34,260 bases of DNA, taken from a virus. The translations under genes and the position numbers were made by a program. Shown here in pieces: positions 7,286 through 34,260 of the stretch. Location of the stretch: positions 1-34,260 of the IMG/VR virus record IMGVR_UViG_3300010157_000147; one strand, written 5' to 3'. The notes beneath the pieces are model-generated. The model worked only from the letters and a program-made list of their open reading frames with translations, made no database searches and had not been told where the DNA came from. Positions within the stretch are counted from its first letter, which is position 1, and every line of letters begins with the position of its first letter.

Positions 7286-7306
7286 ACTCCTACATAATAA
7301 ACTACG

Positions 7307-7313
7307 CTAAATA
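7307..7313 (+). promoter_or_regulatory. candidate T4-type late promoter box, unit 2
   Basis: CTAAATA lies 21 bases before the gp6 ATG (7335), in the 49-base gap after gp25. GGGAAGGG (7324-7331) is the ribosome site. It is the same heptamer as at 1315 and 28054. Confidence 0.7.
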
Positions 7314-7334
7314 CTCAATAATTGGGAAGGGCGT

Positions 7335-19700: not shown

Positions 19701-22700
19701 TTGCTGGCAGGATTATCAAAGTAAGTATAAAAAACTCTGGTCGCAATTATTTTGATGATACAATTTTAACAGTAAGATCTTACTCTGTTCTAGTACTAAG
19801 TGATACTAATTCTTTTAACAAGTGGAGCATCTACTCTTGGGATACTAAAGATAAACTATGGAATAGAGCAAGAAGCCAATCATACGATGTAACAAAATTC
19901 TGGAACTACACTGACTGGTACGCCGCTGGATATACACAGTTTACAAAAATTGACTATCTTGTTGATAATACCTATTATCTTGTAACGTTGTCTGCAAATA
20001 TTGGCAGCATAGTTAAGGTAAAAAATATTGGAACAGGTGGTTGGTTATTATTAGAGAAATATAATAATTTAACAACTATTGATTATACACAAAATTATAA
20101 AGTTGTAGGTAGACAGAACGGAACTATACAGTTTTCGAGTAGCATCTTTACCTTTGTTAATTCTTCAGTAGGATTTGATAATCAACTGTTTGATGCTTCT
20201 CTATATGACAATTTTGCCGCAGCAGAATTACGAATCATCATTAACACTGTTAAAGATAAATTATTAGTTGATGATTTACGAGTAGAATATTTAAAATTAT
20301 TCTTTGCAAGTTTACGTTATGTTCTACATGAACAAATTTTTGTTGATTGGGCATTTAAAACTAGCTTTGTAAAAGCAACTCATAATGTTGGAGAGTTAAA
20401 AGAAAAAGTTACTTATAATAATGATAACTTGTCTAATTTTGAAGATTATATCAACGAAGTAAAACCGTATAGAACAAAAATTAGAGAATATATTAGTTCT
20501 TATAACAAGACAGATTATGCTAGACAATCAACAACTGACTTTGATTTAATTCCGTTAGTTAACGATAACTTAACTGTTACTCCTATGAGTGTAACGGTGC
20601 AGACTGACGGCAGCATTGCAGCAGGGTCGAATAGTATACTTGCTTACCCTTGGAAACATTGGTATGATCATGTAGGATTTACCATCCAGTCTATTGAAAT
20701 ATTTGATGGCGGCAGCGGTTATATTACTCGACCTATAGTTAAAATTGAAGGCGGATTTGGTACTGGAGCTCAAGCTAAAGCATATATTTCTAATGGTAAA
20801 GTTAATCGCATTGATTTAATATCCGGTGGTACTGGGTATCTTAAAGCACCTACGATTATTATTGACGGCGGCCTTTCAGAAACTGGCACTGCTGCAACAG
20901 TAGTTGCTATTATTGAAAGTGAAGTTGTTAGAGCTAACAAAATTGCTATTAAGTTTGATAGAATAACACGAAATTATTATACTAGTGGTGATCTTAATAA
21001 AGTTTCTGAAGACCTTGATGGCACCGGCTCGAGAGTACAGTTTGCACTAAAGTGGAGTCCTCGAATAGAAATTGGATCTGTTTCTATAAAACTTTATCCA
21101 GTTGGTATAGATCCTGATACAGTCGGAGTTACTGGAATTGATATTTTACGAGGTGAATATAAACTATCAACTAAAAAATCTACCAGTAAAGGTTACACTA
21201 GCTATTCTGGATTATTAACATTAGACACCGCTCCGGCAGTGGGTGAGACAATTAGAATTATCTATGAAAGAAACTTTGAACACTTGTCAGCTGCTGATAG
21301 AATTAAATTCTTTTACAAACCTACCGCTGGTATGTTAGGAGTTGATCTAGCACAGTTGATGCACGGCATTGATTATGACGGAGTTCAATTACAAGGACTG
21401 GGATTTGGAGCAACTGGCGGCTGGGATGCGCTTCCATGGTTTACTGATGAATGGGATGGATTTGATCCCAAGTATGATGACAGAATTATCACAGCCAGCG
21501 CAGGTGACTACGGCTATACATTAGGATACACTCCGGATGCAGGAGAAGTTATTAATGTATACATTTCTAGATATGTTCCTACAGCAACAGTTAATCTTTA
21601 TATAGTGGCACTTTCACCATTAGATGATAAATCTCTATGGATTACTACCGACACTGCTCACGGATTTACTGCTGATATGTTTATTACTATATCAGGAGTG
21701 ATTCACTCCGGAAACTACAATGGAACACATAGAATTCGACAAATAATTTCTGAAGATAAATTTTCAATTACTTTAGGAGAATCTGCAATGTTGGGGATTA
21801 GTGGAACTGTGTACGGATATAGATACAGTGCTCCTATTAGAATCGATGATCCTGCATTTAGTACATATCCAATGTCTGGTAAACCAAATGTAGTAATGAC
21901 ATCCATTGTAGCTAATGGTACAACTGATGCGTTTACGTTACCTAATGCACATTTGACTATTAATAATAACGATAAAGTTATTTTCCGCAAGAGTACTAGT
22001 GATGGAAGCATTTTACCTCAGCCTAATGAGTACGATACCCAATTACAGGGCGGTGCCTTTGATGGTTCAACACTGACTACAGCAACAGGATATGCTCCTG
22101 CTGATATCAATGTTGATGGCGATGATTTCGTAACTCCAAACACAAGTCATGCTCCTGAAGAAATCGTTCCAGGTCACATAACAGATGCAGTAGCTATTAA
22201 AGTATATCATAGACCAGCAGGCGGAGCCCCAAATATTCTGTTTAAGAATTACAAAGGCAACGGCTTAACTACTGAATTTATCATAGGTCAATACTTTGCT
22301 ACTGATCGAGCAGTAATTGTGAAAGTTGGCAATGAAATAATTGACCAGCTAGACTATACTATTGATTGGTCGTCAAACTTTATCAAGTTTGATACTGCAC
22401 CAATTACTGATTCAGTTGTTAGTGTAATTAGTATAGGATTTAATAGCGAAAATATATTAGACTTAGATTACTTTATAGCTGATGGCAGCACTACTGAATA
22501 TGTAACTCGTGCTCCGTGGCTTGAAAGAGCACTAAATTCTACTGTGCTAGTCAATGGAGCTGTAGCTGAGTACGAATTATTTAAGACTGATTCAACATAT
22601 GATAGTCCTAATAGAGTAGCTATACGATTTGGAACAGCAGTGGAAGAAAATGCTCTTATCAATTATATGATAGATACAAGTACTTCTATACAAACTTCTA

Positions 22701-24202
22701 GTGTTGTAAAAAGTCAAATTATTACCACTAACGGGGTTGATGTAAGTTATAACTTAGATAATTTAAATTCATCTTTATTGCCGGGAAATAGATTACAGCC
22801 TTATGAAACTAATATTATTGTAAGAAAAGGTCAAGAAATACTTCGACCACCTACAGTTATGTACTTTACAATGTTAGATAACAATTTGTCTTATAATATT
22901 CCTGCACATAAATTTGCAACTTATACAATTAATGCTACAGATATTCAAGTCTATTCTGATTCTAATAAGCTAATACCAGGTGTAGAATATATTATTGATT
23001 TATTGGGAATCACAGTAGAGCTTGCACAATCGTCATATGTAGAAAATGCCAAGTTAGCAGTAGTAGTTACTTTAGATTCGGATTATTCTGTAACTAACAA
23101 CGGTACCATAGAGTTTGCTACAATCTATCCAAATAACACCGATATAGAAATAATTACATTCTATAATCATATGTTGCTAGATATTGATAGAACTACGGAT
23201 GTATTTGTTCCGTCTACTATATTAACTCCGGGCACAACTGACTATTATGAATTTACTAATAAGTTAGGTGGACAGTTTAGCCTACGTCGTCCAGCAGTGT
23301 CAGATGATTATGTTTGGATTATTAAAAATGGAACATTATTAACTCATAGCGTTGACTATGTAGTAGAAGATGATCGAGTAACTGTTAAATTAAAAGATTC
23401 TCTAATTGATACTGATGTAGTCCAAGTAATGTTGTTCTCCGATGAAACAATAACTACTAGTTTTGGATTCATGCAGTTTAAAGATATGTTAAATCGTGTA
23501 CATTACAAACGTCTACGTGCAGACAAAGCTACTATCCTAGCTGCTGATCTAAATCAGTCAGATATTGAGATTGTTGTAGATGACGGCTCAGTATTCTCTG
23601 TACCTAATCCAGCACTAAACTTGCCTGGTATTATTGAGATTAATGGAGAGCGTATCGAATATTTTACTAAAATAGGTAATGTATTAGGTCAGTTACGCCG
23701 AGGAACATTAGGTACAGGCACTCCAGTAGTTCATGCAGCTGGCACAACTGTACAAGATATAGGCCCAACTGAAACCATTCCGTATTCTGACACCATTATT
23801 GTTAATACAATAGTCAGTGACGGATTTACTACAGATGTGGGCAACTTAGCGTATATTCCTAAACTAGGAATTAATCCTAAACCTAAACAGCATAATTATG
23901 ATACGGTTGACGTATTTGTTAACGGCTACAGATTAAAAAAAGCAGAATACAAACTGTTTATGGAATCAAACCCTAACCATCAACCGTACAGTCCCGAAGG
24001 CGATATAACTTTCCCTGCAGAATTTAGTGTAGACGGAGTTCATAATCGAATCACTCTAACAACTGCTGCTGCTGAGAAAACAAAGGTAGTTATTGTTAAG
24101 AAAGAGTTAAAATTATGGGAAGATGAAGGCAAGAGTTTAGCAAATTCTAACAATAAGATTGCTAATTTCTTGAAAGGAAACGCAACGGTTTGGCCACGAT
24201 AA
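10784..24202 (+). CDS. giant modular baseplate-wedge-region structural protein (4,472 aa; gp7 position)
   Basis: One unbroken frame. The N-terminal 155 residues (NLLPRIFRTDSNKKFLQ; YSWNPHMNWDKFVNYQQYYW) and the regions at about 1222-1510 (HPWECLGFSLPPHWW, YGPAPYTS) and 1870-1960 (DDVSQYKFYQGMI) match a family I associate with aquatic T4-like baseplates. Modules in between: a cupredoxin-like domain at about 190-275 without copper ligands; HGLTTG.. and HGFTAD.. fibre modules (about 520-605, 3613-3670); aromatic CBM-like segments; a seven-repeat propeller at about 2200-2545; GxGY..P repeats near 2945 and 3305-3370; and several NG..L..DYT type Ig-like repeats at about 3700-4472. By position it replaces T4 gp7 (1,032 aa, from memory), possibly with gp8 and gp10 functions. 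Host-surface or fibre-anchoring roles are inferred. GGGAG precedes the ATG. Confidence 0.7.
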   Translation: MANNDQNELGIPLTSSDGRESANLLPRIFRTDSNKKFLQATLDQLTQPGTVKKVNGYIGRQTAKAVTSADIFVTAADTIRQNYQLEPAAVIQDYLGNTNFYKDYIDHINHIDVSGGNVQNHERVNSQVSYSWNPHMNWDKFVNYQQYYWLPYGPAPIEIAGQQLAIESTYTVEAVDESDNYAFLFSPDGLTRNPTLTLYRGQTYTFVIDSLGNPFSIKTSRVAGDLERYTIGVSTSAVESGTITFTVGVNAPDVLYYVSENSADTGGVFHVLNIDNNTYLNVDADILGKKTYTMSSGMPLSNGMKVKFTGNIYPTNYATGYWYVEGIGTAIRLISESDLEIIGSYSQEKALLFDDGAFDQSPFSTATSFPQKKDYILVARGSIDRNPWSRYNRWFHQDVIIAAATAAGQVPSLDQSARAIRPIIEFDAGLKLFNFGHKAKTNVTLIDTFTTDVFSTIEGTLGYNIDGVDLAEGMRVLFAADTDLLVKGRIFNINFINVTVPGRQIGFYALPGIDPTTNTITIETNLLTNAIGHGLTTGNQVLYLNNGNTSISGLTNRKVYYVQVLNSTQIQLYNDKNLTVVADIFATGSDVHKLEVFSGLRRQINLVEADDSLPLENETVLVEAGVVNQGTMYWYTGTTWKIGQTKTLVNQPPLFDIFDATGISYGNALVYDGTTFVGNKLFSYKMGTGTTDSELGFPLAYQNINNIGDISFEFNLIADSFTYKKVVDIITTATDVGFLKSILGLTTFNYVNGWKTTQITNLQPIVRIYKESGLVNNFPIDVYSNVDELDDLEVRVYINGKRLAKSNYTISTNVVRKSVVLITNVSLTDVVTLKCFSAQQKNNNGYYEVPVNLQNNPLNNNLSEFTLGQVIDHVDTIIDNIDTFVGTYPGTSNLRDIGNITPYGTRFIQHSGPVNLSLYHFGSTTANVFKALEQARDDYSKFKRAFIVAASSSGIDTDTRRHVDYVLSDLAKDKSTNRPYYLSDMYGYAASNISEYIVLDPRTKIYPLTVAFNLTVLSNKSVNIYLNDVQLVEGRDYTFGTDVFFEILTDLAEGDILTAVEYESTDGSFCPATPTKLGLYPKFIPSKFLDTTYLEPTEVIQGHDGSITIAFGDYRDDLILELEKRIFNNIKVQYNPDIFNIYDYIPGYDRATMYSKEEYETILSTFFYQWTNYVGQDFTKQNVEWWDRLNPFTFNYRGNYASNGSPVPAYWRGVYRWLLDTDRPHTHPWECLGFSLPPHWWQEVYGPAPYTSNNLIMWDDIRQGIIREPNKPIRRLEKFAKSVLSKGTPVTETGELQDPLNSNFVSGPIKPTAEGYYAFGDVGPVESAWRRSGHYPFAIIQAALLMQPNKVLGTCLDRSRIVRNLSGQLVYSTSGLRIRLADIVLPSTAASTSRVLTSGLINYIIDYLTNDTTFLIKQYQTDLDTLTNNLGIKLGGFTAKNKFKLLLDSKNPTSTGSIFIPEENYTVFLNTSSAVKKVTYSGVVITKHSDGFEISGYNNELPYFNYNPWLESARTITVGGISESYIVWSAGKRYVAGGIVFYGNRYYRVNVTHTATDTFDNTLFSRLAALPVSGGRNADIRKSWDTTLVLTLGYGTKLSTVQEVVDFLQGYGSYLSEQGFIFDDFNTTLKSITNWETAVKEFMFWTTQNWGAGAVLSLSPASNKITLTTTKSIVNDLLDPFFGYKIFRVDGQKLEPEFTNTYRNDATSEFSITPTNTTHGIYGAVFYMIQKEHVLILDNRTLFNDVIYDLEPGYRQDRVKVIGYISQNWNGGFNIPGFIFDQARINDWSMWTDYKLGDIVKYKEFYYSALSTLPGVQEFNAADWAMLASKPTAKMVANWDYKSEQFTDFYDLDTDNFDAEQQKFAQHLIGYQKRQYLENIIKDDVSQYKFYQGMIIEKGTQNVLNKLFDVLSADGMESLTFDEEWAVRVGDYGAVAAFDETEFILDESQFKINPQPVELVSTIDPTIVDFVYRQRPSDVYIKPLGYNNDIWAVTGTKQYLRTPGFVRYEDVLLSVDTLTDALQNDISTFTEGDYVWCAFENMLNSFKERWNVYRFTQSAFTVTDATYSYNSTSKIGELTITCNTAPTVEAGDILGIKNFNIPKDGFYTVHSVDSNDIIIRTIVTGWEPLADPTLIVLYQFIPCLFNSIDDVNDNLPTSIKSNELVWTKDSGNGTWGVYNNNKVYNSFNIDVATIPDLTGINFGKKVSLSQTGTTAVVTDADQVIILDRKNIISTYDAAPAYNWIQNQSIVLDPTIADIADQEFGAETALSADGMWLAIAAPFADNVGSSGYNNQGYVSLYYKTLGTGYTLVDTKTGAGAASLFGSKLVFAKSGNTYILAVSAANTVYFYQTTGTSSWTSYAASLSIPNVKNISLSETGNKFAAAVPSAVSNKGQVKLYTLTMGNYGSPITLAGTASDDRFGESISLTQSSKYIAIGSNIGNVYIYNTSSTSVPYQTISSITNNSGDQFGTYVQFANNDSTLVVSAIGVSRVDIYDLYGAKFLYGESVTSTASSYGASITAGDNTILVGAPNFNSSAGTTFSYIKSSLVKSWSLRVYEQLRPNISNVKKAYLYNKITNKIVTYLDVVDPIQGKIPGPADQEIRYKTYFDPATYSVGTNAVNVDSGLNWTTSQVGMLWWNLTRAKFLDNQGGEVVYRSTTWNKLYKTASIDIYEWVETKYLPSEWDKLADTTKGLTAGISGTSLYGDTVYSVKNKYDTVGQKLIPTYYFWVKNKKVIPNAAGRTLTASSIASLISDPIGHGYTCVAPTGTSSFSLVNFNNLLEDTDVVLNFQTWVIDNHDINMHSQWKIISEHVNTTIPKNIENKWIDSLIGKDSNDRVIPDTNLPVKNRYGIEFRPRQGMFVNRVEALKQYIERVNSILMDHLIVDDFDISDLMLSDPIPTAVSGLWDSTIDFETELKFVGTATLVDAKLRAITENGVIIEVIIDNAGYGYKNPPLIKISSSGNGAVLVPVLDVAGRIIKVSIKNSGRNYFDDTILTVRSYSVLVLSDTNSFNKWSIYSWDTKDKLWNRARSQSYDVTKFWNYTDWYAAGYTQFTKIDYLVDNTYYLVTLSANIGSIVKVKNIGTGGWLLLEKYNNLTTIDYTQNYKVVGRQNGTIQFSSSIFTFVNSSVGFDNQLFDASLYDNFAAAELRIIINTVKDKLLVDDLRVEYLKLFFASLRYVLHEQIFVDWAFKTSFVKATHNVGELKEKVTYNNDNLSNFEDYINEVKPYRTKIREYISSYNKTDYARQSTTDFDLIPLVNDNLTVTPMSVTVQTDGSIAAGSNSILAYPWKHWYDHVGFTIQSIEIFDGGSGYITRPIVKIEGGFGTGAQAKAYISNGKVNRIDLISGGTGYLKAPTIIIDGGLSETGTAATVVAIIESEVVRANKIAIKFDRITRNYYTSGDLNKVSEDLDGTGSRVQFALKWSPRIEIGSVSIKLYPVGIDPDTVGVTGIDILRGEYKLSTKKSTSKGYTSYSGLLTLDTAPAVGETIRIIYERNFEHLSAADRIKFFYKPTAGMLGVDLAQLMHGIDYDGVQLQGLGFGATGGWDALPWFTDEWDGFDPKYDDRIITASAGDYGYTLGYTPDAGEVINVYISRYVPTATVNLYIVALSPLDDKSLWITTDTAHGFTADMFITISGVIHSGNYNGTHRIRQIISEDKFSITLGESAMLGISGTVYGYRYSAPIRIDDPAFSTYPMSGKPNVVMTSIVANGTTDAFTLPNAHLTINNNDKVIFRKSTSDGSILPQPNEYDTQLQGGAFDGSTLTTATGYAPADINVDGDDFVTPNTSHAPEEIVPGHITDAVAIKVYHRPAGGAPNILFKNYKGNGLTTEFIIGQYFATDRAVIVKVGNEIIDQLDYTIDWSSNFIKFDTAPITDSVVSVISIGFNSENILDLDYFIADGSTTEYVTRAPWLERALNSTVLVNGAVAEYELFKTDSTYDSPNRVAIRFGTAVEENALINYMIDTSTSIQTSSVVKSQIITTNGVDVSYNLDNLNSSLLPGNRLQPYETNIIVRKGQEILRPPTVMYFTMLDNNLSYNIPAHKFATYTINATDIQVYSDSNKLIPGVEYIIDLLGITVELAQSSYVENAKLAVVVTLDSDYSVTNNGTIEFATIYPNNTDIEIITFYNHMLLDIDRTTDVFVPSTILTPGTTDYYEFTNKLGGQFSLRRPAVSDDYVWIIKNGTLLTHSVDYVVEDDRVTVKLKDSLIDTDVVQVMLFSDETITTSFGFMQFKDMLNRVHYKRLRADKATILAADLNQSDIEIVVDDGSVFSVPNPALNLPGIIEINGERIEYFTKIGNVLGQLRRGTLGTGTPVVHAAGTTVQDIGPTETIPYSDTIIVNTIVSDGFTTDVGNLAYIPKLGINPKPKQHNYDTVDVFVNGYRLKKAEYKLFMESNPNHQPYSPEGDITFPAEFSVDGVHNRITLTTAAAEKTKVVIVKKELKLWEDEGKSLANSNNKIANFLKGNATVWPR

Positions 24203-24205
24203 ATA
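24198..24205 (+). promoter_or_regulatory. candidate T4-type late promoter box, unit 3
   Basis: GATAAATA differs from T4 TATAAATA only at its first base. It spans the stop of the giant gene and lies 20 bases before the ATG at 24226, with GAGAGA (24215-24220) as ribosome site. The spacing matches the CTAAATA boxes elsewhere. Confidence 0.68.
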
Positions 24206-24225
24206 ATAAACAATGAGAGATCACT

Positions 24226-24837
24226 ATGCAAGGTAAAGACTTATCAGGAATTCACATAGAGGGACATATTAAAATATATGACCCTAAAACACAAGAGGTT
24301 TTCATTAATAAACGTAATGCTATACACTACGAAAATATGAGCATTGCGCTGGCAGAAAGTATTGCCAACGCCGGGCAAGGATTTATCTATGAGATTGCGT
24401 TTGGCAACGGTGGTACAACTGTAGACCCTACAGGTATTATTACCTACTTAACGCCAAATTCAACTGGGACAAGTGCTACATTATACAGTGAGACCTACAG
24501 TAAAGTAATAGATGATCGCTCAGTAACTAATTTAGATCCTGTAAGGAACAAGATTGAAACTCGACATGTAACAGGTACTAACTATACTGATGTATTTGTT
24601 ACTTGTTTGCTAGATTATGGCGAGCCGCAAGGACAAGATGCATTTGATAACACAACTAACAACAATTCAGACTTTGTGTTTGATGAGTTAGGCTTACGAT
24701 CTTATAGTACTAGTGGGACTGGCAAGTTATTAACCCACGTTATTTTTCACCCTGTACAAAAGAGTTTAAATCGTTTGATCCAAGTTGACTATACAGTACG
24801 TATCCAGAGTTTGACTGGACTAAGTGAGGTTGCATAA
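24226..24837 (+). CDS. small virion structural protein, function unknown (baseplate/fibre junction)
   Basis: A 203-residue protein without a T4 counterpart that I recognise. It begins with a beta-rich segment (GIHIEGHIKIYDPKTQEVFI), then INAGQ-type text with YEIAFGNGGTTVDPTG (about residues 54-70), a predicted strand-rich middle (TRHVTGTNYTDVFVTCLL) and a C-terminal half with FDELGLRSY and a hydrophobic strand pair. There is no signal peptide, membrane segment or enzymatic motif. It is first in a unit headed by a late-type box and overlaps the first fibre gene (TAATG), so a fibre-attachment or baseplate role is inferred from context. It could be a reduced wedge protein standing in for gp8, gp9 or gp11; the sequence does not decide this. 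Confidence 0.6.
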   Translation: MQGKDLSGIHIEGHIKIYDPKTQEVFINKRNAIHYENMSIALAESIANAGQGFIYEIAFGNGGTTVDPTGIITYLTPNSTGTSATLYSETYSKVIDDRSVTNLDPVRNKIETRHVTGTNYTDVFVTCLLDYGEPQGQDAFDNTTNNNSDFVFDELGLRSYSTSGTGKLLTHVIFHPVQKSLNRLIQVDYTVRIQSLTGLSEVA

Positions 24838-26939
24838 TGTCATATAAAATTGATCACTCAGATCTTCCAAATAATGGTTCTATTACAGTTGACGACCAAC
24901 AGCTTAATCAGCAAACAAGTTTAACATTTGTAGGAAAGAATTACACTGGATATTCACAATTTATTGCAGAAAATTTCTTACATTTATTAGAAAATTTTGC
25001 TAGGGCCACTGCCCCTGGCGAACTTCCAGGCGAAGGTTCCCCCATCCCAGGTCAGCTATGGTACAATACCGGGCGTACTTCTGACCCAGCCAAGCCTCAA
25101 TTACTAGTATACGACGAATCTCATAATTGGGTACCTGCTGGTAATGTTATTAAATCAATCAGTCCTCCAACAAATGCTACAATTGGAGATTTGTGGGTTG
25201 ATACCTCAAACCAACAGCTATCTCTATGGTCGGGTTCAAGTTGGATTCTTGTAGGCCCGCAGTTTAGTGCGGGCGCACAAACAGGCCCGTATGTTGGAGA
25301 CCCAATACCTGATACAACATCTCCGATTGCTATTAATCATAATGTTATTAAATTAATTGTAGCTGACGAAATTGTTGCAATTATTAGTAAAGATGCATTT
25401 ACTCCTAAGACGACGATCGAAGGATTTGCAACAATAAAACAAGGCATTAACATTTCTACTAAAGATTTTGACGGTAACGGCACTGTTCTTAATAAATTAT
25501 GGGGCACTGCTGAAACTGCATCTAGTTTATTAGTGGGAAATACCGCAGTTGCAGCAACAAACTTTTTAAGAAGTGATATTGCTAGCGTTACTAATTATGG
25601 ATTAGGAATTAGAAACAATGCAGGAATTACTGTAGGCTCTGACTTAGCAACATCATTAACAGCTAGTCAAGTAGGAGAATCAGTTTTATATAACAAGATT
25701 GATGGCTCTAGCATTTTTATTAGAATTAAACAAAGTGGTGTTGATAAAGATGTTATCACAGTTACTGGTCCACGTGTTGGAGTTAACAAAACTAATCCGG
25801 CTCAAGCGTTAGATGTAACTGGATCAATTGCAGCAAGTGATAGTATATTAATTACCGGAACTACTAATGCCACTAATCTAATTACTGGTAGTTTACAAAC
25901 AGCAGGCGGAGCAGCCGTTACAAAAAATTTACAAGTTGGACAAAACTTAACTGTAATAGGTACTGCGGCAACCGGTGCATTAACGGTAACAGGCGCACTT
26001 GCAGCATCAGGCGCAATAACAGCACCTACAATTAATGCAACTACGTTTAACGGAACATTTGTAGGTCAACTTTCTGGATCAGTAACTGGTACAGCAACAC
26101 GATTAACTAGTCCTACAGTATTTCAATTGCAAGGAGATATAACTAGTAATTCAATTAGTTTCACTGGCGCACAAGTAGGCGGTACTGCAACATTTACTAC
26201 AGTTATATCGTCAGACTTTATCAATACTAAAACTGCGGTCTTTGATTCAAATAACTCCGACGAATTAATTATTAATAGAATTGGTACAGGGTTAAGAAAA
26301 ACTAATAAACAGACTTTTTTAGCAAATGTTGCAACAATACCAACAGGAACTATTCTTCCTTTTGCAGGAACAACTGTACCTAACGGATATTTGTTATGTG
26401 ACGGTAGCGAACAATTAATTTCGTCGTACCCGGAACTTTTTGCTATAATTGGGTACACCTACAAACCACTAGTAGATATACTAGGAGTATCAACTTTTGG
26501 TATACCTGATCTTAGAGGCAGATTTCCTTTAGGAAAAGATAGTATGAATAATGGAACAATTGTTCCATTATTGCCAACTGGAGAAACGTCAAACACAACA
26601 ATTGGTCCAGCAGCAGATAGAGTAACTGAGGTCACTGCAGATACTGTTGGTATGTATAACGGTGCAGAAGATAAGACATTGACAGTAAATAACCTTCCGC
26701 AGCATAGACACAACTTACAAGGAAATGCGGGCGGCCAGTACTATGCATTTAGAAATGCTCCCGGCGCACCCGACGATACTGATGCAACAAGTGGCCTAGG
26801 AGCTACTGATACTAATACTGGTCAGTATTTAACTAATAGTGGACCAATTGTTGCCAGCGGCGCACTAGCGGTTCCATTTAATACAATGAATCCGTACTTG
26901 ACAATTAACTACATCATCTTTACTGGTAGGATTATATAA
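24837..26939 (+). CDS. tail fibre/short tail fibre protein with tail-collar domain (gp12-like C-terminus)
   Basis: A 700-residue adhesin. Residues 1-150 are the N-terminal module shared with the next two fibre genes, including two tryptophan repeats (GQLWYNT..LLVYDE and GDLWVDT..QLSLWSG). The middle contains VGVNKTNPAQALDVTGS (about 315) and Ala/Thr/Gly-rich beta repeats typical of fibrous shafts (about 330-430). The collar domain starts at about 501 (IPTGTILPFAGTTVPNGYL, LCDG) and runs to IPDLRGRFPLGKD (about 556). A metal-type HxH motif, QHRH (His623, His625), is followed by a C-terminal NPYLTINYIIFTGRII. In T4 gp12 an HxH motif binds zinc and the collar region is near the receptor-binding tip. 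Receptor binding here is inferred. The ATG lies in a TAATG overlap with GAGGT upstream. Confidence 0.82.
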   Translation: MSYKIDHSDLPNNGSITVDDQQLNQQTSLTFVGKNYTGYSQFIAENFLHLLENFARATAPGELPGEGSPIPGQLWYNTGRTSDPAKPQLLVYDESHNWVPAGNVIKSISPPTNATIGDLWVDTSNQQLSLWSGSSWILVGPQFSAGAQTGPYVGDPIPDTTSPIAINHNVIKLIVADEIVAIISKDAFTPKTTIEGFATIKQGINISTKDFDGNGTVLNKLWGTAETASSLLVGNTAVAATNFLRSDIASVTNYGLGIRNNAGITVGSDLATSLTASQVGESVLYNKIDGSSIFIRIKQSGVDKDVITVTGPRVGVNKTNPAQALDVTGSIAASDSILITGTTNATNLITGSLQTAGGAAVTKNLQVGQNLTVIGTAATGALTVTGALAASGAITAPTINATTFNGTFVGQLSGSVTGTATRLTSPTVFQLQGDITSNSISFTGAQVGGTATFTTVISSDFINTKTAVFDSNNSDELIINRIGTGLRKTNKQTFLANVATIPTGTILPFAGTTVPNGYLLCDGSEQLISSYPELFAIIGYTYKPLVDILGVSTFGIPDLRGRFPLGKDSMNNGTIVPLLPTGETSNTTIGPAADRVTEVTADTVGMYNGAEDKTLTVNNLPQHRHNLQGNAGGQYYAFRNAPGAPDDTDATSGLGATDTNTGQYLTNSGPIVASGALAVPFNTMNPYLTINYIIFTGRII

Positions 26940-28045
26940 TGACTTATAAGATTAATAAAACAGACGGTGCGTTAATTGCTGAAGTTATTGACAGCGCAAT
27001 TGATCAAACAACTACAGATATTACTCTCATTGGTAAAAATGTGTCCGGATACGGCGAATTTATCAATGAGAACTTTGTAAAGATTCTTGAAAATTTTGCT
27101 AATACAAGTCAACCTAATAACCCACTGACTGGTCAAATATGGTTTGACACTAGTGAAAACAGATTAAAAGTATATGACGGCCTTGGTTTTAAAAACGGCA
27201 GCGGCCCTATAGTATCAAGTACTCCACCAACTACAGCAATCCAAGGAGATTTTTGGATTGACAGCGCAGAAAATCAACTGTACTTTTATACTGGCACTAA
27301 CAAATACCCCGCTAGTAAAATTTGGAAAGATAGCCAAAAAAAATCAGGATTTGAAGTTGACACTATATATGACACTAATAATGCTCCTAGAGTAATTGTT
27401 AAACTATATGTCGGGCAAGCATTATTGGGTATATTCAGTAAAGATCCCGTAGCGTTTACTCCTCGTGAGGATAGTATTGGCCTTGGGGGATTCACCGGTG
27501 AAATTGGTCCAGGATTTAATCAAAGTACACTAGCAGGTATGAAATTCCGTGTTACTGCTACTAACGCTGATGCATTAATGGGTAAAACACCCGCAAACTT
27601 TGTATCAACGCTGGGTAATTCGACAATTGCCTCGCCAAGCGGCCCAGACGGCCCCGGAACATTATCAATTTTAAATAGCACTCCGTTGATACTAGGGGCA
27701 GGATCTCAAACTGAGATTAGGGTTGATAATAGTTCATTACAGATAGTATGTGCCTATCCTTATCAGAACTTTTTGCTTAAAGTTAAGAATTCGGGCGGAG
27801 TTGTAGATGCAATACTAGTGGATAGTCAACACAGTAAAGTTGGAATTTTTAACAATACTCCGGAGTATACCCTAGATGTAACAGGTAGTTTTAGAGCATC
27901 TACACAGTTACAACTTCCAAAATATACAGTTTTTGACCGTGATGCAAGAACTATGTCTAGCGAAAATAATGGAGAGTTAATTTATAACACTACGACAGAT
28001 AAAATTCAAGCATACGCAGCAGGCACATGGGTAGATCTAAATTGA
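26939..28045 (+). CDS. tail fibre paralogue 2 (shared N-terminal module, short)
   Basis: A 368-residue paralogue of the preceding fibre. Residues 1-125 repeat the common module: TDITLIGKNVSGYGEFINENF, in part, then GQIWFDTSENRLKVYDG and GDFWIDSAENQLYFYTG. The centre is unlike the other two. VGIFNNTPEYTLDVTGSF (about 301) is the same type of fibre motif as in copy 1. The C-terminus ends with a further degenerate tryptophan repeat, GELIYNTTTDKIQAYAAGTW. There is no collar domain. It starts in a TAATG overlap with AGGAT upstream and ends the unit; the 38-base gap after it holds a late-type box. It is probably an alternative or accessory fibre attached to the baseplate the same way as copy 1. Confidence 0.72.
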   Translation: MTYKINKTDGALIAEVIDSAIDQTTTDITLIGKNVSGYGEFINENFVKILENFANTSQPNNPLTGQIWFDTSENRLKVYDGLGFKNGSGPIVSSTPPTTAIQGDFWIDSAENQLYFYTGTNKYPASKIWKDSQKKSGFEVDTIYDTNNAPRVIVKLYVGQALLGIFSKDPVAFTPREDSIGLGGFTGEIGPGFNQSTLAGMKFRVTATNADALMGKTPANFVSTLGNSTIASPSGPDGPGTLSILNSTPLILGAGSQTEIRVDNSSLQIVCAYPYQNFLLKVKNSGGVVDAILVDSQHSKVGIFNNTPEYTLDVTGSFRASTQLQLPKYTVFDRDARTMSSENNGELIYNTTTDKIQAYAAGTWVDLN

Positions 28046-28053
28046 ATTTTAAA

Positions 28054-28060
28054 CTAAATA
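28054..28060 (+). promoter_or_regulatory. candidate T4-type late promoter box, unit 4
   Basis: CTAAATA, 23 bases before the ATG at 28084, with AGGGGT (28071-28076) between. It occupies the only sizeable gap in the fibre cluster. Confidence 0.68.
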
Positions 28061-28083
28061 CTAATAGTTAAGGGGTAGAACGA

Positions 28084-29592
28084 ATGTCGTACAGCATTAA
28101 TAGATATAATGGAACAATAGTGTCCGTCGTTGAAGACGGCACCATCGATAATACGCTTGATATTAAACTTATCGGCAAAAATTATGCTGGTTATGGCGAA
28201 GTCCAAAACGAAAATTTTGTACATTTACTAGAACACTTCGCAGGCCCAACAGAACCTTCTCGCAGAATTACTGGTCAAATTTGGTATAATAGTGACTCTA
28301 AGAAATTACAGTATTATACTGCTACTGGTGCTACTGGGTGGAAAACAACAGGCGGTGCTGAAACCGGTCCCACTCCCCCAACTAGCCCCACATTAGGAGA
28401 TTTCTGGTGGGACACTGCTAATGATCAACTGTTTTCATGGAGCGGAACACAATTTATTTTAGTTGGCCCACAAGGAGTTTCAGGTAGCGGAACTACGCAA
28501 CTGAAATCTCGCAGTGTTAAAGCAGCTCCTGGTGGCATAGTTGGCGGCACGTATGTTCCAATTATTCAAGCCATTGTTGATGACTCTACGATATATATTA
28601 TTTCTAAAACTTCATTTGAAATTGACCAAACAGTTCCCGGGAACACAATTGCAGGCTTTGGAATTATCAAAGCCGGTATCACATTAAAAGATACTAACAA
28701 TGCAGAAGGTGTAACTACTTCAGCAACTGAAGTTTTCCATGGAACTGCTACTAATGCATTGGCGTTAGGTGGCGTTACCGCTAACGATTTTCTTGCTATT
28801 TTAAATTACGATTTTACACCGGCAGCTGATCCTGTACTGTTTAATAGTGGCGGATTTACTGTTGGTGGCACAAGTGGTGCTGGCGTTAATACACTAACAG
28901 TTAATATTAATTCAAGTAATCCAGTATTTAAATCAGCAACTTCATTAATGTCTTTTCAGACAACTTCGGGATCAGTTAAGACTCCGTTGACGTTGTCTTC
29001 TAATAACATTTTGCCAGGTGCTGATAGCGTATCTAACATTGGCTCTGCTAGTTTTAAATATGCTACAGTATATGCAACATCGTTTAACGGTCCGGCTACT
29101 CAAGCAGATTCTCTTAGTGTTGGCGGCAATTATCAAGTAGCTAGCACCTCAGCTGGCGTAAACACAGTAGCTGCGCGAGACAATTCTGGAAACTTAACAG
29201 CCAATGTGTTTAATGGTACAGCTACCGCAGCTCGTTATGCTGACTTGGCTGAAAAATACTTGGCTGATGCAGAATATGAAGTTGGTACAGTTGTTATGAT
29301 AGGCGGCGAAACTGAAGTTACCGCAGCACAAGTTGGATTCCGTGCAATTGGTGCAGTATCTGCTAATCCTGCACATTTAATGAATAGCGAATTAGCAGGC
29401 GGCACGGCAGTTGCGTTAAAAGGACGAGTTCCAATTAAAGTAACAGGATCAGTTATTAAAGGTCAACGTTTAGTTGCTGGCCCAAACGGCACTGCTCAAG
29501 CAGCCATGGGAAATACTGCAGATGTGTTTGCAATTGCATTAGAAAGCAGTGACGACACTGGAGTTAAACTAGTCGAAGCACTAGTATTATAA
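28084..29592 (+). CDS. tail fibre paralogue 3 (shared N-terminal module, distinct C-terminal domain)
   Basis: A 502-residue fibre. Residues 1-135 carry the shared module (LIGKNYAGYGEVQNENFVHL, GQIWYNSDSKKLQYY, GDFWWDTANDQLFSWSG). The middle (about 210-370) is Ser/Thr/Gly-rich with VSNIGSASFKYATVYATSF, a pattern found before fibre tips. From about 382 a different domain starts, ARYADLAEKYLADAEYEVG, followed by beta-rich text to the end; I associate this ending with fibres of aquatic T4-like phages. It has its own late-type box and ribosome site, unlike copy 2. The next gene begins nine bases after its stop. A host-recognition role is inferred from family and location. Confidence 0.75.
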   Translation: MSYSINRYNGTIVSVVEDGTIDNTLDIKLIGKNYAGYGEVQNENFVHLLEHFAGPTEPSRRITGQIWYNSDSKKLQYYTATGATGWKTTGGAETGPTPPTSPTLGDFWWDTANDQLFSWSGTQFILVGPQGVSGSGTTQLKSRSVKAAPGGIVGGTYVPIIQAIVDDSTIYIISKTSFEIDQTVPGNTIAGFGIIKAGITLKDTNNAEGVTTSATEVFHGTATNALALGGVTANDFLAILNYDFTPAADPVLFNSGGFTVGGTSGAGVNTLTVNINSSNPVFKSATSLMSFQTTSGSVKTPLTLSSNNILPGADSVSNIGSASFKYATVYATSFNGPATQADSLSVGGNYQVASTSAGVNTVAARDNSGNLTANVFNGTATAARYADLAEKYLADAEYEVGTVVMIGGETEVTAAQVGFRAIGAVSANPAHLMNSELAGGTAVALKGRVPIKVTGSVIKGQRLVAGPNGTAQAAMGNTADVFAIALESSDDTGVKLVEALVL

Positions 29593-29601
29593 GGATAAAA
29601 C

Positions 29602-30495
29602 ATGTCAGCAGGGCAAGGTCAAATAATTGAAAAAGCTGATTACGATACTATTAAAGCTAAAGTTGATTTAGTTTTAGGTACGGGATCAGGACAAACAGGA
29701 TACGGTCAAACTATTACTTCGCCAGCAGTTACTGCTGGTGCTGTAATATACGCCCAACAATGGCTTTATTTAAGAAATGATATGGTAAAGTGTCGCCAAC
29801 ACCAAACTGGTGCATCTGTAGGTACAGGTAGTGCAACAGATGGAGCAAACTTATTAGTACCATCAAGCGGAGCTTCAATTACAGAAGCATTACGTAATCA
29901 ATTTAATCTATTTTCAAATACAATCACCTCAGATAAATTCTCAATTGGTGCTGGACAATATTCTGGTGAGGGATTAATTACTGGAACCTATTCTTCGGCA
30001 TGGAACGGAACATTAACACATACTGTTACAGTCTCAAGTACTGCTGATAACATGCGATATTTTTTCAATGCTGGCGGCAAGATTCGTGTATCTGCTAACC
30101 GTTCCGGCGGCACATCTAGTAGCAAGAATACTACTTGGGACACCATGTTTAGTCAGATGGGCGAATTCCAGATGGATTATACCCAGACAACATTTACTGG
30201 TGCAGCAACGGGTTCTGCAATAGGTTGGTTTGATCTTACTACATCAAATCAGCTAGTTGGACAAAAAAGTGCTCCGTCAGGTTCTTATGCAGAAAATAGA
30301 TACTACATCTATGCTCGTCGAGATGCAGGATCAACTCAGTTGATTTTAACAATTCAGTTTCAAGACAATGACGTTGGCGATCCAAACTTTGACGAAAATG
30401 TTGACGGCACATTAAACAGTGTTATCAGTCAATACCGCCCGTCCGGTGCAAACGTATCAGTAACAGCACCTACTGCTAGTCAGTCAATATCGTAA
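29602..30495 (+). CDS. virion structural protein, function unknown
   Basis: A 297-residue protein of a type I have seen beside fibre genes in aquatic T4-like phages but cannot name. The N-terminal part has KVDLVLGTGSGQTGYGQTI (about 20-40) and YLRNDMVKCRQHQTG (about 57-71). Next come NQFNLFSNTITSD and a Gly/Ser/Thr-rich beta region with FNAGGKIRVSANRSGG (about 154-170). The C-terminus is beta-rich up to a Ser/Thr tail. There is no signal peptide or transmembrane segment. AAGGAT precedes the ATG, nine bases after the fibre 3 stop, so it is probably translated from the same late message. It could be a fibre-tip or fibre-connector protein; this is contextual only. Confidence 0.6.
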   Translation: MSAGQGQIIEKADYDTIKAKVDLVLGTGSGQTGYGQTITSPAVTAGAVIYAQQWLYLRNDMVKCRQHQTGASVGTGSATDGANLLVPSSGASITEALRNQFNLFSNTITSDKFSIGAGQYSGEGLITGTYSSAWNGTLTHTVTVSSTADNMRYFFNAGGKIRVSANRSGGTSSSKNTTWDTMFSQMGEFQMDYTQTTFTGAATGSAIGWFDLTTSNQLVGQKSAPSGSYAENRYYIYARRDAGSTQLILTIQFQDNDVGDPNFDENVDGTLNSVISQYRPSGANVSVTAPTASQSIS

Positions 30496-30506
30496 CTCTA
30501 AACTTC

Positions 30507-30535
30507 TTGACAAGCTAATTACTATACTGTATAGT
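30507..30535 (+). promoter_or_regulatory. sigma70-type promoter for the glycosyltransferase block
   Basis: TTGACA (30507-30512), a 17-base spacer and TATAGT (30530-30535), one mismatch from consensus. The expected start is near 30542, a few bases before the GGAGG ribosome site of the 115-aa gene. No late-type box is seen in this gap, in contrast to the structural units. Confidence 0.8.
30521..30535. repeat. 15-bp palindrome overlapping the -10 box (operator candidate)
   Basis: ACTATAC T GTATAGT: two perfect 7-base arms around one central base. The right arm contains the -10 hexamer, so a dimeric protein bound here would block the promoter. The site is seen; any regulator is unknown and not in the window. 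Confidence 0.6.
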
Positions 30536-30554
30536 AAAAGCTCTGGAGGTTACT

Positions 30555-30902
30555 GTGGACGAACGATTAGAAAAAGCATTTCAAACAGCCAATTATATGA
30601 CCACGTTGAGCAATCAACGTAAGGTTATTCTTGAAGAATTTCAACAAAGTCTTATCTATTATTTTCAAGGTGCAAGTTTCACAATTGATAGAAACTTAAT
30701 TACCTTTATTGGCACACTTGTTACTCGTGAAACTACAGTAGCCGTAGTACTTGACGATAATAACATTCCCGTAGAAATCCCCGATTTAAAATTATTTTTA
30801 GACGAGATTATTTCTATCTACTTTAGTGCAACCAACGACTATTTGGTAAAGTACAATCAAATTAAAACCAAACGCCGTGTTGGCGATTTAATGGCCCTAT
30901 GA
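30555..30902 (+). CDS. small conserved phage protein, function unknown
   Basis: A 115-residue protein starting at GTG, chosen because GGAGG (30545-30549) lies five bases upstream and the frame opens there (MDERLEKAF). It begins with a helix-rich stretch (about 1-38: ANYMTTLSNQRKVILEEFQQSL), then strands around FTIDRNLITFIGTLV, a DDNNIPVEIPDL segment, and a C-terminal helix with YFSATNDYLVKYNQIKTKRR. It resembles small proteins found near fibre genes of aquatic T4-like phages; no function is known to me. It is first in the unit behind the sigma70-type promoter and overlaps the first glycosyltransferase-like gene (ATGA), so it may work with those enzymes. Confidence 0.6.
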   Translation: MDERLEKAFQTANYMTTLSNQRKVILEEFQQSLIYYFQGASFTIDRNLITFIGTLVTRETTVAVVLDDNNIPVEIPDLKLFLDEIISIYFSATNDYLVKYNQIKTKRRVGDLMAL

Positions 30903-31738
30903 CACGTGGCGTATTAATATTTGCGCAAAATAATGCAGAGATTGACTATGCAAAGATATCTTTGTTTGCCGCCAAACGAGTAAAAGAATATCTAGGAGTA
31001 CCTGTTAGTTTAGTTACAGATAGCGCAAGCTGGCTTAAACAAAGTCAGCCAGATGCCGAACAAGTGTTTGATCAAATCATAGAAATATGGACAGAAACAC
31101 ATCAGACTAAAAAATTCTATGACGGATCGCTGGCTGTAAAAACGTTAACATGGAAAAACTTATCACGTGTTGATTGTTGTTTTTTGTCTCCCTATGATGA
31201 GACGCTAGTTATTGACAGTGATTTCATTATTAGCAGCCCTACATTAATGAATATATGGGATAATCAAAACGATTTCTTAATATATAAAGATAGTTTTGAT
31301 CTAGCTAGCTGGCGCGATGACCGCAGTTTTAGATATTTAAATCAACATTCTATTCCGTTCTATTGGGCCACTGCATTTTATTTTAAAAAGACCGCAGCTA
31401 CATGGGCGTTCTTTGATCTAATTAAAAACATTAAATTAAATTGGAATTATTATAGATTGTTGTATAATATAGACTCTACAGTATTTCGAAATGACTTTGC
31501 GTTCAGCATTGCTATACATATGATGGGTGAAGATTTTGCAACGCCGTTGCCCGGAAAAATGAACTACATTTTAGATAGAGATATTTTGTTAGATATAGAC
31601 AATTCTAAATTAACATTTTTAGTTGAAAGGAAAAATTTTAACGGAGAATACACAGCAGTTAAGACCAGCAATCTAGATGTACATGTTATGAACAAATATA
31701 GTCTTACTCGTTGTATTGACGGAGTAGTAAATGAGTAA
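30899..31738 (+). CDS. GT-A-fold glycosyltransferase-like protein 1
   Basis: A 279-residue protein resembling nucleotide-sugar transferases of the GT8-like type. The N-terminus forms a Rossmann-like start (GVLIFAQNNAEIDYAKISLF; VPVSLVTDS), and a hydrophobic strand leads into a DxD motif, SPYDETLVIDSDF (Asp106, Asp108), the expected metal and sugar-nucleotide site. Downstream text has FYWATAFYFKKT (about 158-170), similar to the acceptor-side region of the next gene (LYSGMCYFKKS). It overlaps the upstream gene by ATGA and the downstream gene by eight bases. The donor sugar and acceptor cannot be read from the sequence. Virion fibre, host surface or phage DNA decoration are all possible. Confidence 0.65.
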   Translation: MTRGVLIFAQNNAEIDYAKISLFAAKRVKEYLGVPVSLVTDSASWLKQSQPDAEQVFDQIIEIWTETHQTKKFYDGSLAVKTLTWKNLSRVDCCFLSPYDETLVIDSDFIISSPTLMNIWDNQNDFLIYKDSFDLASWRDDRSFRYLNQHSIPFYWATAFYFKKTAATWAFFDLIKNIKLNWNYYRLLYNIDSTVFRNDFAFSIAIHMMGEDFATPLPGKMNYILDRDILLDIDNSKLTFLVERKNFNGEYTAVKTSNLDVHVMNKYSLTRCIDGVVNE

Positions 31739-32555
31739 AGGATTTTTAGTACTTGCTCAGAATAGTGATGTTGACTATGTACGTCAAGCATATGCACTAG
31801 CGTTAAGCATTAAAGCGACTCAGCCTACTATTAATAATGTTAGCATTATTACTAATGATATGTTGCCAGCAGGATTTTCTAAAGCATTTGACAAAGTTAT
31901 TCCAATCTACTTTGGAGACTCGGCTGCAAACAGTGCATGGAAAGTAGAAAACAGATGGAAACTGTACAGATCAAGTCCGTACGACGAAACTATTGTATTA
32001 GATGCAGATATGCTAGTATTAGATAATATAGAACATGTTTGGAAATTTGCCAGCGAACGAAATTTGTGTTTTACTTCATCAGTTACAGATTATAAATCTC
32101 GTATAGTTGTTGACGACACATATAGAAAAATGTTTGTAGCTAACGATTTACCAAACTTATATTCTGGAATGTGTTATTTTAAAAAATCTCAACTTGCAGA
32201 GGACTTTTTTAAACTGCTAGAATTTATTACTAATAATTGGAATAAAGTCTTCTATGACGCTGCGCCTAAAAACATGCAGAACTTTTATAGCTTTGATGTC
32301 TCAGTGGCCATTGCTGCCAAGTTAATGGGCATTGACGATATTGTTACACATAAACATAGCCCATTTACTTTCACACACCTAAAGCCAGCATTACAAGGTT
32401 GGGATCCAATTCCACAATCTTGTCTAAGCCAACTATTGATAAATTTTACAGACTCTAGAGAATTATATCTAAATAATTTTAGACAACGAGGAGTGTTTCA
32501 TTATGTAGAGGATGCATTCCTTACTGATGAAATTATTAAAAAATTAAATGTATAA
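31731..32555 (+). CDS. GT-A-fold glycosyltransferase-like protein 2 (paralogue of protein 1)
   Basis: A 274-residue paralogue of the preceding gene. Matching elements in the same order: GFLVLAQNSDVDYVRQAYAL (N-terminal strand and helix), VSIITND, SSPYDETIVLDADML with DxD at Asp91/Asp93, and LYSGMCYFKKS. The C-terminal part has THKHSPFTFTHLKPALQGWD (about 204-225), which could line the acceptor site. The pair probably arose by tandem duplication followed by strong divergence. It starts within the end of the preceding gene with GGAG upstream and overlaps the next gene by eight bases. Enzyme class is inferred from motif order; the sugar is unknown. Confidence 0.68.
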   Translation: MSKGFLVLAQNSDVDYVRQAYALALSIKATQPTINNVSIITNDMLPAGFSKAFDKVIPIYFGDSAANSAWKVENRWKLYRSSPYDETIVLDADMLVLDNIEHVWKFASERNLCFTSSVTDYKSRIVVDDTYRKMFVANDLPNLYSGMCYFKKSQLAEDFFKLLEFITNNWNKVFYDAAPKNMQNFYSFDVSVAIAAKLMGIDDIVTHKHSPFTFTHLKPALQGWDPIPQSCLSQLLINFTDSRELYLNNFRQRGVFHYVEDAFLTDEIIKKLNV

Positions 32556-33165
32556 TCCAGAAGAAGACGTTATACCCTACGAGCTAATAGCTAAGTCGTT
32601 AGCATTGAGTACTGTAGTATTACCTTATCGAGTGTACTTTGATAAAGATACCGGAGATATTTTAAGTGTTACAAATGAAGCCAGTACTCAGTATGACTAT
32701 TTTGTAGAATTTGAGTTTGATATTGTTAAAGACTTTTTGAATGGTGTTAGCCAATTTAAAGATTTTCAAATTACGTTTATTGACCAAAATACACCAAGAA
32801 TTGTTTCTAAGTACGAAGATGATATTACAGCAGTATTTTTAACTCAAGCACCGTTAGTAACAAACTGGGACAGTATGTTTACTATTGAAAATTATCCTAC
32901 ATTTAAAAAATGGGGATTTCAAATACGTAACGATCAACGAGAAATATTAAAAAAATATAACCTTAATACTACACTTGAGATTTATGTAATCGACAAACGT
33001 AACATGAATTTTATCTATAGAACTATTAAAATTTCAATAAATGAATTAATTAAAAAAGATAGAGAAATTGTGTATTACCATTCTGACAAAGAAGGTGATA
33101 TCAATAATACAGTAGTGTATGTTAAACAATTCTTCTCATCAGTTGGACATTATATAATACCATGA
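32548..33165 (+). CDS. protein of unknown function in the glycosyltransferase block
   Basis: A 205-residue protein I do not recognise. It opens with a helix (YELIAKSLALSTV), then YRVYFDKDTGDILSVTNE (about 27-44), alternating strands and helices (VEFEFDIVKDFLNGV), WDSMFTIENYPTFKKWGFQI (about 110-129) and a strand-rich end with EIYVIDKRNMNFIYRTI. There is no DxD, signal peptide or membrane helix. It has no clear Shine-Dalgarno, overlaps the preceding stop by eight bases and the next start by four (ATGA), and so is probably made by translational coupling. Its place between transferase-like genes suggests a related job but does not show it. Confidence 0.5.
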   Translation: MYNPEEDVIPYELIAKSLALSTVVLPYRVYFDKDTGDILSVTNEASTQYDYFVEFEFDIVKDFLNGVSQFKDFQITFIDQNTPRIVSKYEDDITAVFLTQAPLVTNWDSMFTIENYPTFKKWGFQIRNDQREILKKYNLNTTLEIYVIDKRNMNFIYRTIKISINELIKKDREIVYYHSDKEGDINNTVVYVKQFFSSVGHYIIP

Positions 33166-34073
33166 CACAAACAGTTAAAATTTTAGATTACGATATTATC
33201 TATCTCAGCTACGATGAACCGAACGCTGAAAAAAATTATGCAGATCTGTTAAAAAAAGTGCCTTGGGCAAAACGTGTACACGGAGTTAAAGGTAGTGATG
33301 AAGCACATAAAGCCTGCGCTCGATTAAGTGATACCGATCGATTTGTTACAGTAGATGGTGACAATACAGTACGAGAAGATTTCCTAAATCAAGAAATTGA
33401 TTTTGATGAACATAAAGATTTATCAAAGTGTGTTATTAGCTGGGCAGGATACAATGTAGTCAACGGACTTATGTACGGTAATGGCGGATTAAAGTTATGG
33501 CCTAAGCAGTACGTATTAGACATGAAAACGCACGAAAACGCACCCGCTGATGATCCTAATGCACAAGTAGACTTCTGCTGGGATGCAGAGTACATACAGA
33601 TGAATAGTTGCTTTAGTGATGTGTATAATAATGCAAGTCCGTTTCAAGCATGGAGAGCTGGATTTCGTGAAGGTGTAAAAATGTCACTAGAGCGCGGAGT
33701 TAAAACAGCCAACAAAGAATTTAAGAAAGAAATTCATTGGAAGAACTTAGATCGTTTGCGAGTTTGGCTGAATGTTGGAGCTGACTCAACAAACGGACTA
33801 TGGGCTATTTTAGGAGCCCGCCACGGATGCTACATGACCAACTGCACTGATTGGGACTATGTACAGGTTAGAGATTTTGATTACCTTACTAGTCTCTGGC
33901 ACAATGACGTGGAGCATTTGAACGTTGAAGACTCTATTAAGACCTATGGTGTTAGCTTAAAAAACGCACTCGATCTTGAGATAGCAACATTAGATGCAGA
34001 TGCTAGTAAATTTTTTAAATCAGTGCACCTTAACCAATATCGTAAAGGTAGTGGATTTCTGGATAAAGAATAA
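33162..34073 (+). CDS. glycosyltransferase-like protein 3 (SYDEPNAE family)
   Basis: A 303-residue protein with a glycosyltransferase-like front end: YDIIYLSYDEPNAEKNYADL (about 10-29), AKRVHGVKGSDEAHKACARL (about 36-55) and FVTVDGDNTV with a DGD motif at Asp65/Asp67. The remainder is unusual for small transferases: CVISWAGYNVVNGLMYGNGG (about 90-109), LWPKQYVLDM and VDFCWDAEYIQMN, which could form an acceptor pocket. The pattern is one I associate with cyanophage-type hypothetical proteins. It is not close in sequence to transferases 1 and 2. The stop overlaps the next start (TAATG). Activity and substrate are inferred only. Confidence 0.62.
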   Translation: MTQTVKILDYDIIYLSYDEPNAEKNYADLLKKVPWAKRVHGVKGSDEAHKACARLSDTDRFVTVDGDNTVREDFLNQEIDFDEHKDLSKCVISWAGYNVVNGLMYGNGGLKLWPKQYVLDMKTHENAPADDPNAQVDFCWDAEYIQMNSCFSDVYNNASPFQAWRAGFREGVKMSLERGVKTANKEFKKEIHWKNLDRLRVWLNVGADSTNGLWAILGARHGCYMTNCTDWDYVQVRDFDYLTSLWHNDVEHLNVEDSIKTYGVSLKNALDLEIATLDADASKFFKSVHLNQYRKGSGFLDKE

Positions 34074-34260
34074 TGTACGATATAGTATTTTACAATTCTA
34101 AACCTCTACCTGAAGAGCGTCAAACGTTTTTAACAGAAAAATATCCTCACGCTAAATTTGTAGAGTTTGACAACACACTAACTAATACTGCTAACTTGGC
34201 TAAGAAAAATGTTCTTACTAAATTCTTTTGGTTTATAGATTCAAGTTATGAATTTTTAGA
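34073..34260 (+). CDS. possible fourth glycosyltransferase-like protein, 3' end outside window
   Basis: The first 62 residues of a gene that runs off the right edge. MYDIVFYNSKPLPEERQTFL and KYPHAKFVEFDNT parallel the YDIIYLSYDEP and VPWAKRVHGVKG segments of the preceding protein. LTKFFWFIDSSYEFL aligns where that protein has TVDGDN. The position of the DxD is DSS (Asp56), so the second acidic residue is not present in this alignment. It starts in a TAATG overlap and is part of the same operon. It may be a non-catalytic relative or a transferase using another metal site. Confidence 0.5.
   Translation, partial: MYDIVFYNSKPLPEERQTFLTEKYPHAKFVEFDNTLTNTANLAKKNVLTKFFWFIDSSYEFL

Follow-up and report, generated by a model that had tools for sequence, protein, structure and literature searches.

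Control of translation by an RNA hairpin that covers the ribosome-binding site (RBS), combined with a promoter nested in that hairpin, has been described for the genes e, soc, 49 and I-TevI of bacteriophage T4 (PMC3014915; PMC2988022). RBS hairpins lying within long phage transcripts have also been described for mobE of phage Aeh1 and seg43 of Aeromonas phage 25, and all genes known to be subject to RBS-hairpin/nested-promoter control are late genes (PMC2988022). The published T4-type cases that we found are all late genes that are silenced early. A device of this kind also operates on the transposase genes of IS10 and IS50, in which a host-type promoter near the end of the element gives a translatable RNA while in transcripts that enter from outside the RBS is concealed by folding, and it serves to limit transposition. 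Here, a short intergenic element was analysed in viral DNA of 34,260 nucleotides (IMG/VR virus record IMGVR_UViG_3300010157_000147, positions 1 to 34,260; the whole stretch is referred to as the window). It is likely that RNA reaching this element by read-through from the late tail genes is held in a translationally locked form, and that a host-type promoter nested in the locking structure frees the glycosyltransferase block downstream.

The gap in question (30496-30554) extends from the stop codon of a 297-aa gene (29602..30495, + strand), the last of the late structural block and the presumed source of read-through, to the GTG start codon of a 115-aa gene (30555..30902, +). The latter is followed on the + strand by genes for a 279-aa GT8-like glycosyltransferase (30899..31738), a 274-aa GT8/glycogenin-like glycosyltransferase (31731..32555), a 205-aa protein (32548..33165) and a 303-aa protein that is a conserved operon member (33162..34073), the start of each overlapping the end of the gene before it. 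This order (115, 279, 274, 205 and 303 aa), with overlaps of 4 to 8 nt, is kept in most relatives, and because of the overlapping starts, control exerted at the first start codon would probably spread through the operon by translational coupling. In some relatives an additional gene is inserted between the two glycosyltransferase genes, encoding 153 aa in L145, L147, L165 and L169 and 300 aa in L151.

The functional assignment of the block was based on profile and structural comparisons. The 274-aa protein matched glycogenin in a profile comparison (E 3e-4), a model of the 279-aa protein matched glycogenin and LgtC in Foldseek (E 1e-6), and a GT-A fold like that of glycogenin and LgtC, with a DxD motif (D106xD108, invariant), is predicted for the GT8-like proteins; the two proteins were considered GT8-like, putative transferases. 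The model of the 115-aa protein matched DUF4376 phage proteins (Foldseek, E about 5e-4, TM 0.57-0.75), a match of fold only, and a Pfam search with this protein gave no hit; middling matches of the same model to prefoldin/coiled-coil structures in the PDB (best Z 7.2) were set aside. Pfam and PDB sequence searches provided no name for the 115-aa, 279-aa and 303-aa proteins, and a Pfam search provided none for the 205-aa protein. DUF4376 proteins are tail-fibre chaperones in the phages in which they have been studied (PMC10579305, PMC10877375). The initial annotation had suggested, as one example, that the transferases modify the host surface or the phage DNA rather than the fibres, a proposal that found no support here: the first gene resembles fibre chaperones, and the fibres are a possible sugar acceptor.

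Several features of the window are relevant to late transcription. A gene for a gp55-like late sigma factor of 273 aa (445-1266, - strand; PHROG 12791, E 1.9e-76) adjoins SbcD/SbcC-like genes, as in T4, and structural genes are preceded by TAAATA-type boxes in their upstream gaps (at 1316, 6831, 7308, 24200 and 28055), so that both components of T4-type late transcription are present. In seven sequences, 4 to 10 TAAATA boxes per sequence were located at -60..-12 of gene starts (0.2 to 1.5 expected), a placement that fits T4-type late promoters. Over both strands of the window, TAAATA is strongly depleted (21 occurrences, with 71 expected), a pattern that selection against stray late promoters would produce. 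The gap 30496-30554 contains no TAAATA, consistent with the earlier remark that a late box is missing here, unlike in the tail units, and a hidden late box in this gap was rejected for the window. Moreover, no terminator-like site was called on the + strand from 29560 to 31185. The promoter of the gp55-like gene, a plain TTGACA-17-TATAAT (1286-1314, - strand), is divergent from the late box of the tail operon (1315-1321).

In the gap, the host-type promoter that the initial annotation had placed between the last structural gene and the 115-aa/glycosyltransferase unit was confirmed at 30507-30535 on the + strand, with the -35 hexamer TTGACA (30507..30512), which is conserved in relatives, followed after 17 nt by the -10 hexamer TATAGT (30530..30535). 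It contains 11 of the 12 bases of the sigma70 consensus and ranks first among the 60 promoter-like sites in 20000-34260. The pattern TTGACA-N16-18-TATANT occurs only twice in the window (0.19 expected from shuffling), once in this gap and once before the gene for the gp55-like late sigma factor. Since sigma70-type promoters elsewhere in these genomes precede gp55 and other non-structural genes, it is reasonable that the block is transcribed separately and possibly earlier, as suggested before. From the position of the -10 hexamer, a putative transcription start was predicted near 30542 (30541..30543, +), which would leave a leader of 13 nt without the 5' arm of the hairpin described below.

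No match to this region was found in annotated phage genomes, either in a DNA near-identity search with the gap or in protein searches with the 297-aa and 115-aa proteins, and the relatives used here are therefore contigs of uncultured viruses. Among these, the 115-aa gene has 48 close relatives, and 80 were retained in a profile search; the upstream sequences comprised 51 distinct ones, and relatives with sufficient upstream sequence formed 23 clusters at <70% identity. A TTGACA/TATAAT-type promoter (at least 11/12, spacing 16-18) was found in 11 of the 23 clusters, compared with 0.01 expected as the mean of shuffles, and when the database was scanned for the composite motif, all exact matches (22/22) preceded the 115-aa gene family. 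Both results indicate that, judged by its sequence, the gap promoter is under selection. Thus, the glycosyltransferase block does appear to have a sigma70-type promoter of its own, as had been proposed, with hexamers and spacing kept in relatives far above chance.

The -10 hexamer lies in a palindrome that had been described as 7+1+7 (ACTATAC T GTATAGT) and proved to be longer, 9+1+9 (TTACTATAC T GTATAGTAA, 30519-30537, +); no further copy with up to 3 mismatches was found in the window. This palindrome looks like the top of an RNA hairpin, the base of which would pair a CUUCU/CCUC strand with the Shine-Dalgarno (SD) sequence GGAGG. In the window, the order from the base is an anti-SD strand ACUUCU (30502..30507) paired with GGAGGU (30545-30550), including the SD of the 115-aa gene (GGAGG, 30545..30549, +), then a middle helix formed by AGCT (30513..30516) and AGCT (30539-30542), and then the palindrome. 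The folding z-score of the window hairpin alone is modest (-2.1 to -2.3).

Comparison of this gap in relatives, which had been suggested earlier as a check, revealed covariation of the hairpin in addition to the conservation of the promoter beyond chance. In almost every cluster the hairpin includes or abuts the SD and the start codon, though the sequence turns over, and the mean folding z-score is -3.6 for the 23 clusters (21 of them below -2) compared with -0.4 for 74 control gene starts. Covariation was computed on 19 sequences, in which 89% of cells are paired, vs 26-45% with slid partners, and the covariation score was reached by none of 500 shuffles. Five pairs change on both sides with pairing kept, three of them in the anti-SD:SD helix (92% of cells paired) and two in the upper helix; the middle AGCT/AGCT helix is weaker (79%). 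The compensatory changes include C-G to U-A at alignment columns 2/54, A-U to G-C at columns 1/55, and U-A to C-G at columns 4/52, where the SD itself becomes AGGGG. In L133, L136, L145 and L152, the SD is predicted to lie mostly in the loop, with the start region still structured. A motif in the 5' arm, AGMTAAYTACT (30513-30523 in the window, and in most relatives), is kept despite a pairing partner that shifts between lineages from upstream of the SD to beside the AUG. This motif was also considered as a repeated operator or phage promoter and rejected, as it precedes only the 115-aa gene in each genome and its other matches are intragenic.

Predictions for naked RNA were used to estimate the accessibility of the start region. 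The mean energy needed to open positions -16..+2 is 14.9 kcal/mol at the start of the 115-aa gene, compared with 5.5 kcal/mol in 72 control genes (p 4e-12), and it is at least 9.5 kcal/mol in every cluster. From the predicted starts of the nested promoters, the computed value falls to 3.8 kcal/mol, and ordinary genes cut at -13 give 3.2 kcal/mol. In the window, the unpaired probability of the SD is 0.03 for the full-length transcript and rises to 0.40 when the RNA begins at 30542, the predicted start. Taken alone, the contrast between full-length and shortened RNA proves little, because shorter leaders always open more easily. Shuffling gave only moderate support for SD sequestration, as the shuffles retain the pyrimidine-rich content, and the comparison of opening energies with other genes is the better test.

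These observations are most consistent with a mechanism in which how well the block is translated depends on the promoter used. Transcripts running in from the late tail genes would carry the whole element and fold, pairing the SD with the upstream CUUCU/CCUC strand, so that the first gene, and probably the operon through its overlapping starts, would be poorly translated. RNA from the nested promoter would begin near 30542, inside the 3' arm, and would be translated, as no hairpin could form. The host-type promoter would thus correspond to the on state, and late read-through to the off state.

A rather unlikely alternative is that the hairpin limits the dose from any late-operon transcript, with the nested promoter as a separate booster and timing beside the point. 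About half of the clusters keep the hairpin without a recognisable sigma70 promoter, and their opening energies are as high as those of clusters with one, both of which would be expected of a general limiter. Within 400 nt of the hairpin-only sequences, a promoter of 10/12 was found in none of 19. Because of these lineages, the role of the hairpin cannot always depend on a sigma70-type nested promoter; either other promoters can be nested in it, or the hairpin also acts as a plain translation limiter. TAAATA is located inside the hairpin in L155 and L173, two sequences without a clear sigma70 promoter. On the other hand, wherever the promoter exists, its -10 hexamer is found within the loop or on its 3' side, and the transcript would thereby lose the 5' arm, an arrangement that argues for promoter-dependent translation rather than mere dose limitation.

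It is improbable that the hairpin serves to protect or process late tail mRNA at its 3' end, as an RNase III site, an exonuclease block or a weak terminator, with the promoter simply packed into the same gap. The hairpin starts only a few nt past the stop of the last structural gene, a position that would suit such a role, and another gap in relatives has a hairpin that leaves the SD untouched. In that gap (L071:8055-8083, + strand, and the same place in other relatives), the 17-nt spacer of a promoter, TTGACA GGAGCTTCGGCTCCTGT TATAAT, forms a perfect UUCG hairpin whose stem shows compensatory changes (GGACC/GGTCC, CCTCC/GGAGG and GGGTC/GACCC) and does not pair with the SD. However, the hairpin before the 115-aa gene has no U-run and was not called as a terminator, and its covarying pairs include the SD, which a 3'-end stabiliser would not need.

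The palindrome had been described in the initial annotation as operator-like, which would make it a DNA site at which a phage or host repressor controls the promoter. A near-perfect palindrome over the -10 box is what such a site would look like, yet this reading is quite improbable. The fixed half-site spacing and conserved half-sites of a repressor operator were not found: the spacing is 5 nt in the window and 8 nt in L009 and L014 (-10 hexamer TACAAT), varying in other relatives too, and in L009 and L014 the distance between the -35 and -10 hexamers is still 17 nt despite the larger hairpin loop. The arms change together through compensatory changes that preserve the symmetry. Because the spacing is free and the arms change freely, a site for a dimeric repressor is unlikely. 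Moreover, the paired region reaches past the palindrome as far as the SD, lineages that lack the promoter still keep the hairpin, and the site is present in a single copy in the window, with the 47-74 kb contigs of relatives lacking the motif before other genes. Variable spacing, compensatory arms, SD pairing and persistence without a promoter all point to RNA structure. Finally, a chance combination of promoter-like and palindromic sequence in an AT-rich gap is hardly credible, even with 60 sites of at least 9/12 in 20000-34260 vs 54.7 expected, given that promoter and hairpin are both conserved across divergent relatives.

Related elements were observed elsewhere in this group of T4-like phages. 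In the gap before a 1149-aa gene (at 7335), UACGC (7303-7307) shares its end with the late box CTAAATA and is predicted to pair with GCGUA (7331-7335), by which the AUG would be hidden when transcription reads through; this hairpin is conserved in five relatives, with invariant arms that give no covariation support. Strong start-region hairpins with a nested or adjacent late box ATAAATA were also found at L085:2230, before a 115-aa gene unrelated to that of the window, and at L071:6166, before a 94-aa gene; both arrangements are T4 gene e-like. These late-box hairpins have the T4-like direction, and the L085 and L071 cases are the stronger ones. The occurrence of both late-box-nested and sigma70-nested hairpins suggests a shared design principle, and it is conceivable, if still tentative, that nested promoters are general translation keys working both ways, with translation of each gene confined to transcripts from the promoter class it carries, which would allow a late operon to precede, without a terminator, a block that is shut off late.

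If the proposed mechanism is true, this conserved element, with its host-type promoter inside the hairpin and its place behind a late operon, would be evidence that the hairpin trick can also serve to shut a block off late, or to insulate it, where phages do without terminators. Some caution follows as well: a palindrome that covers a -10 box in a compact phage gap may reflect RNA structure rather than an operator. The gap element is short and can be tested.

In comparison with known systems, the closest resemblance is to T4 e, soc, 49 and I-TevI, with which this locus shares an RBS hidden in a read-through hairpin (here predicted) and a promoter whose position deprives its transcripts of the 5' arm (here from a predicted start). 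Of the features typical of T4 e, compensatory changes in the hairpin are found here, and a stable hairpin including the SD and a transcript without the 5' arm are predicted, whereas a nested late (gp55) promoter is replaced by sigma70 hexamers without TAAATA. In the T4 genes early or middle RNA is silenced and a late promoter is nested; here the nested promoter is of sigma70 type and the silenced RNA is presumably late, so that the timing would be reversed. Unlike the T4 cases, the target is a chaperone-like/glycosyltransferase operon. Aeh1 mobE and Aeromonas phage 25 seg43 differ in being homing endonuclease genes with a late promoter or none. The IS10/IS50 device belongs to transposon end repeats rather than to a phage operon and shares no sequence with the element described here.
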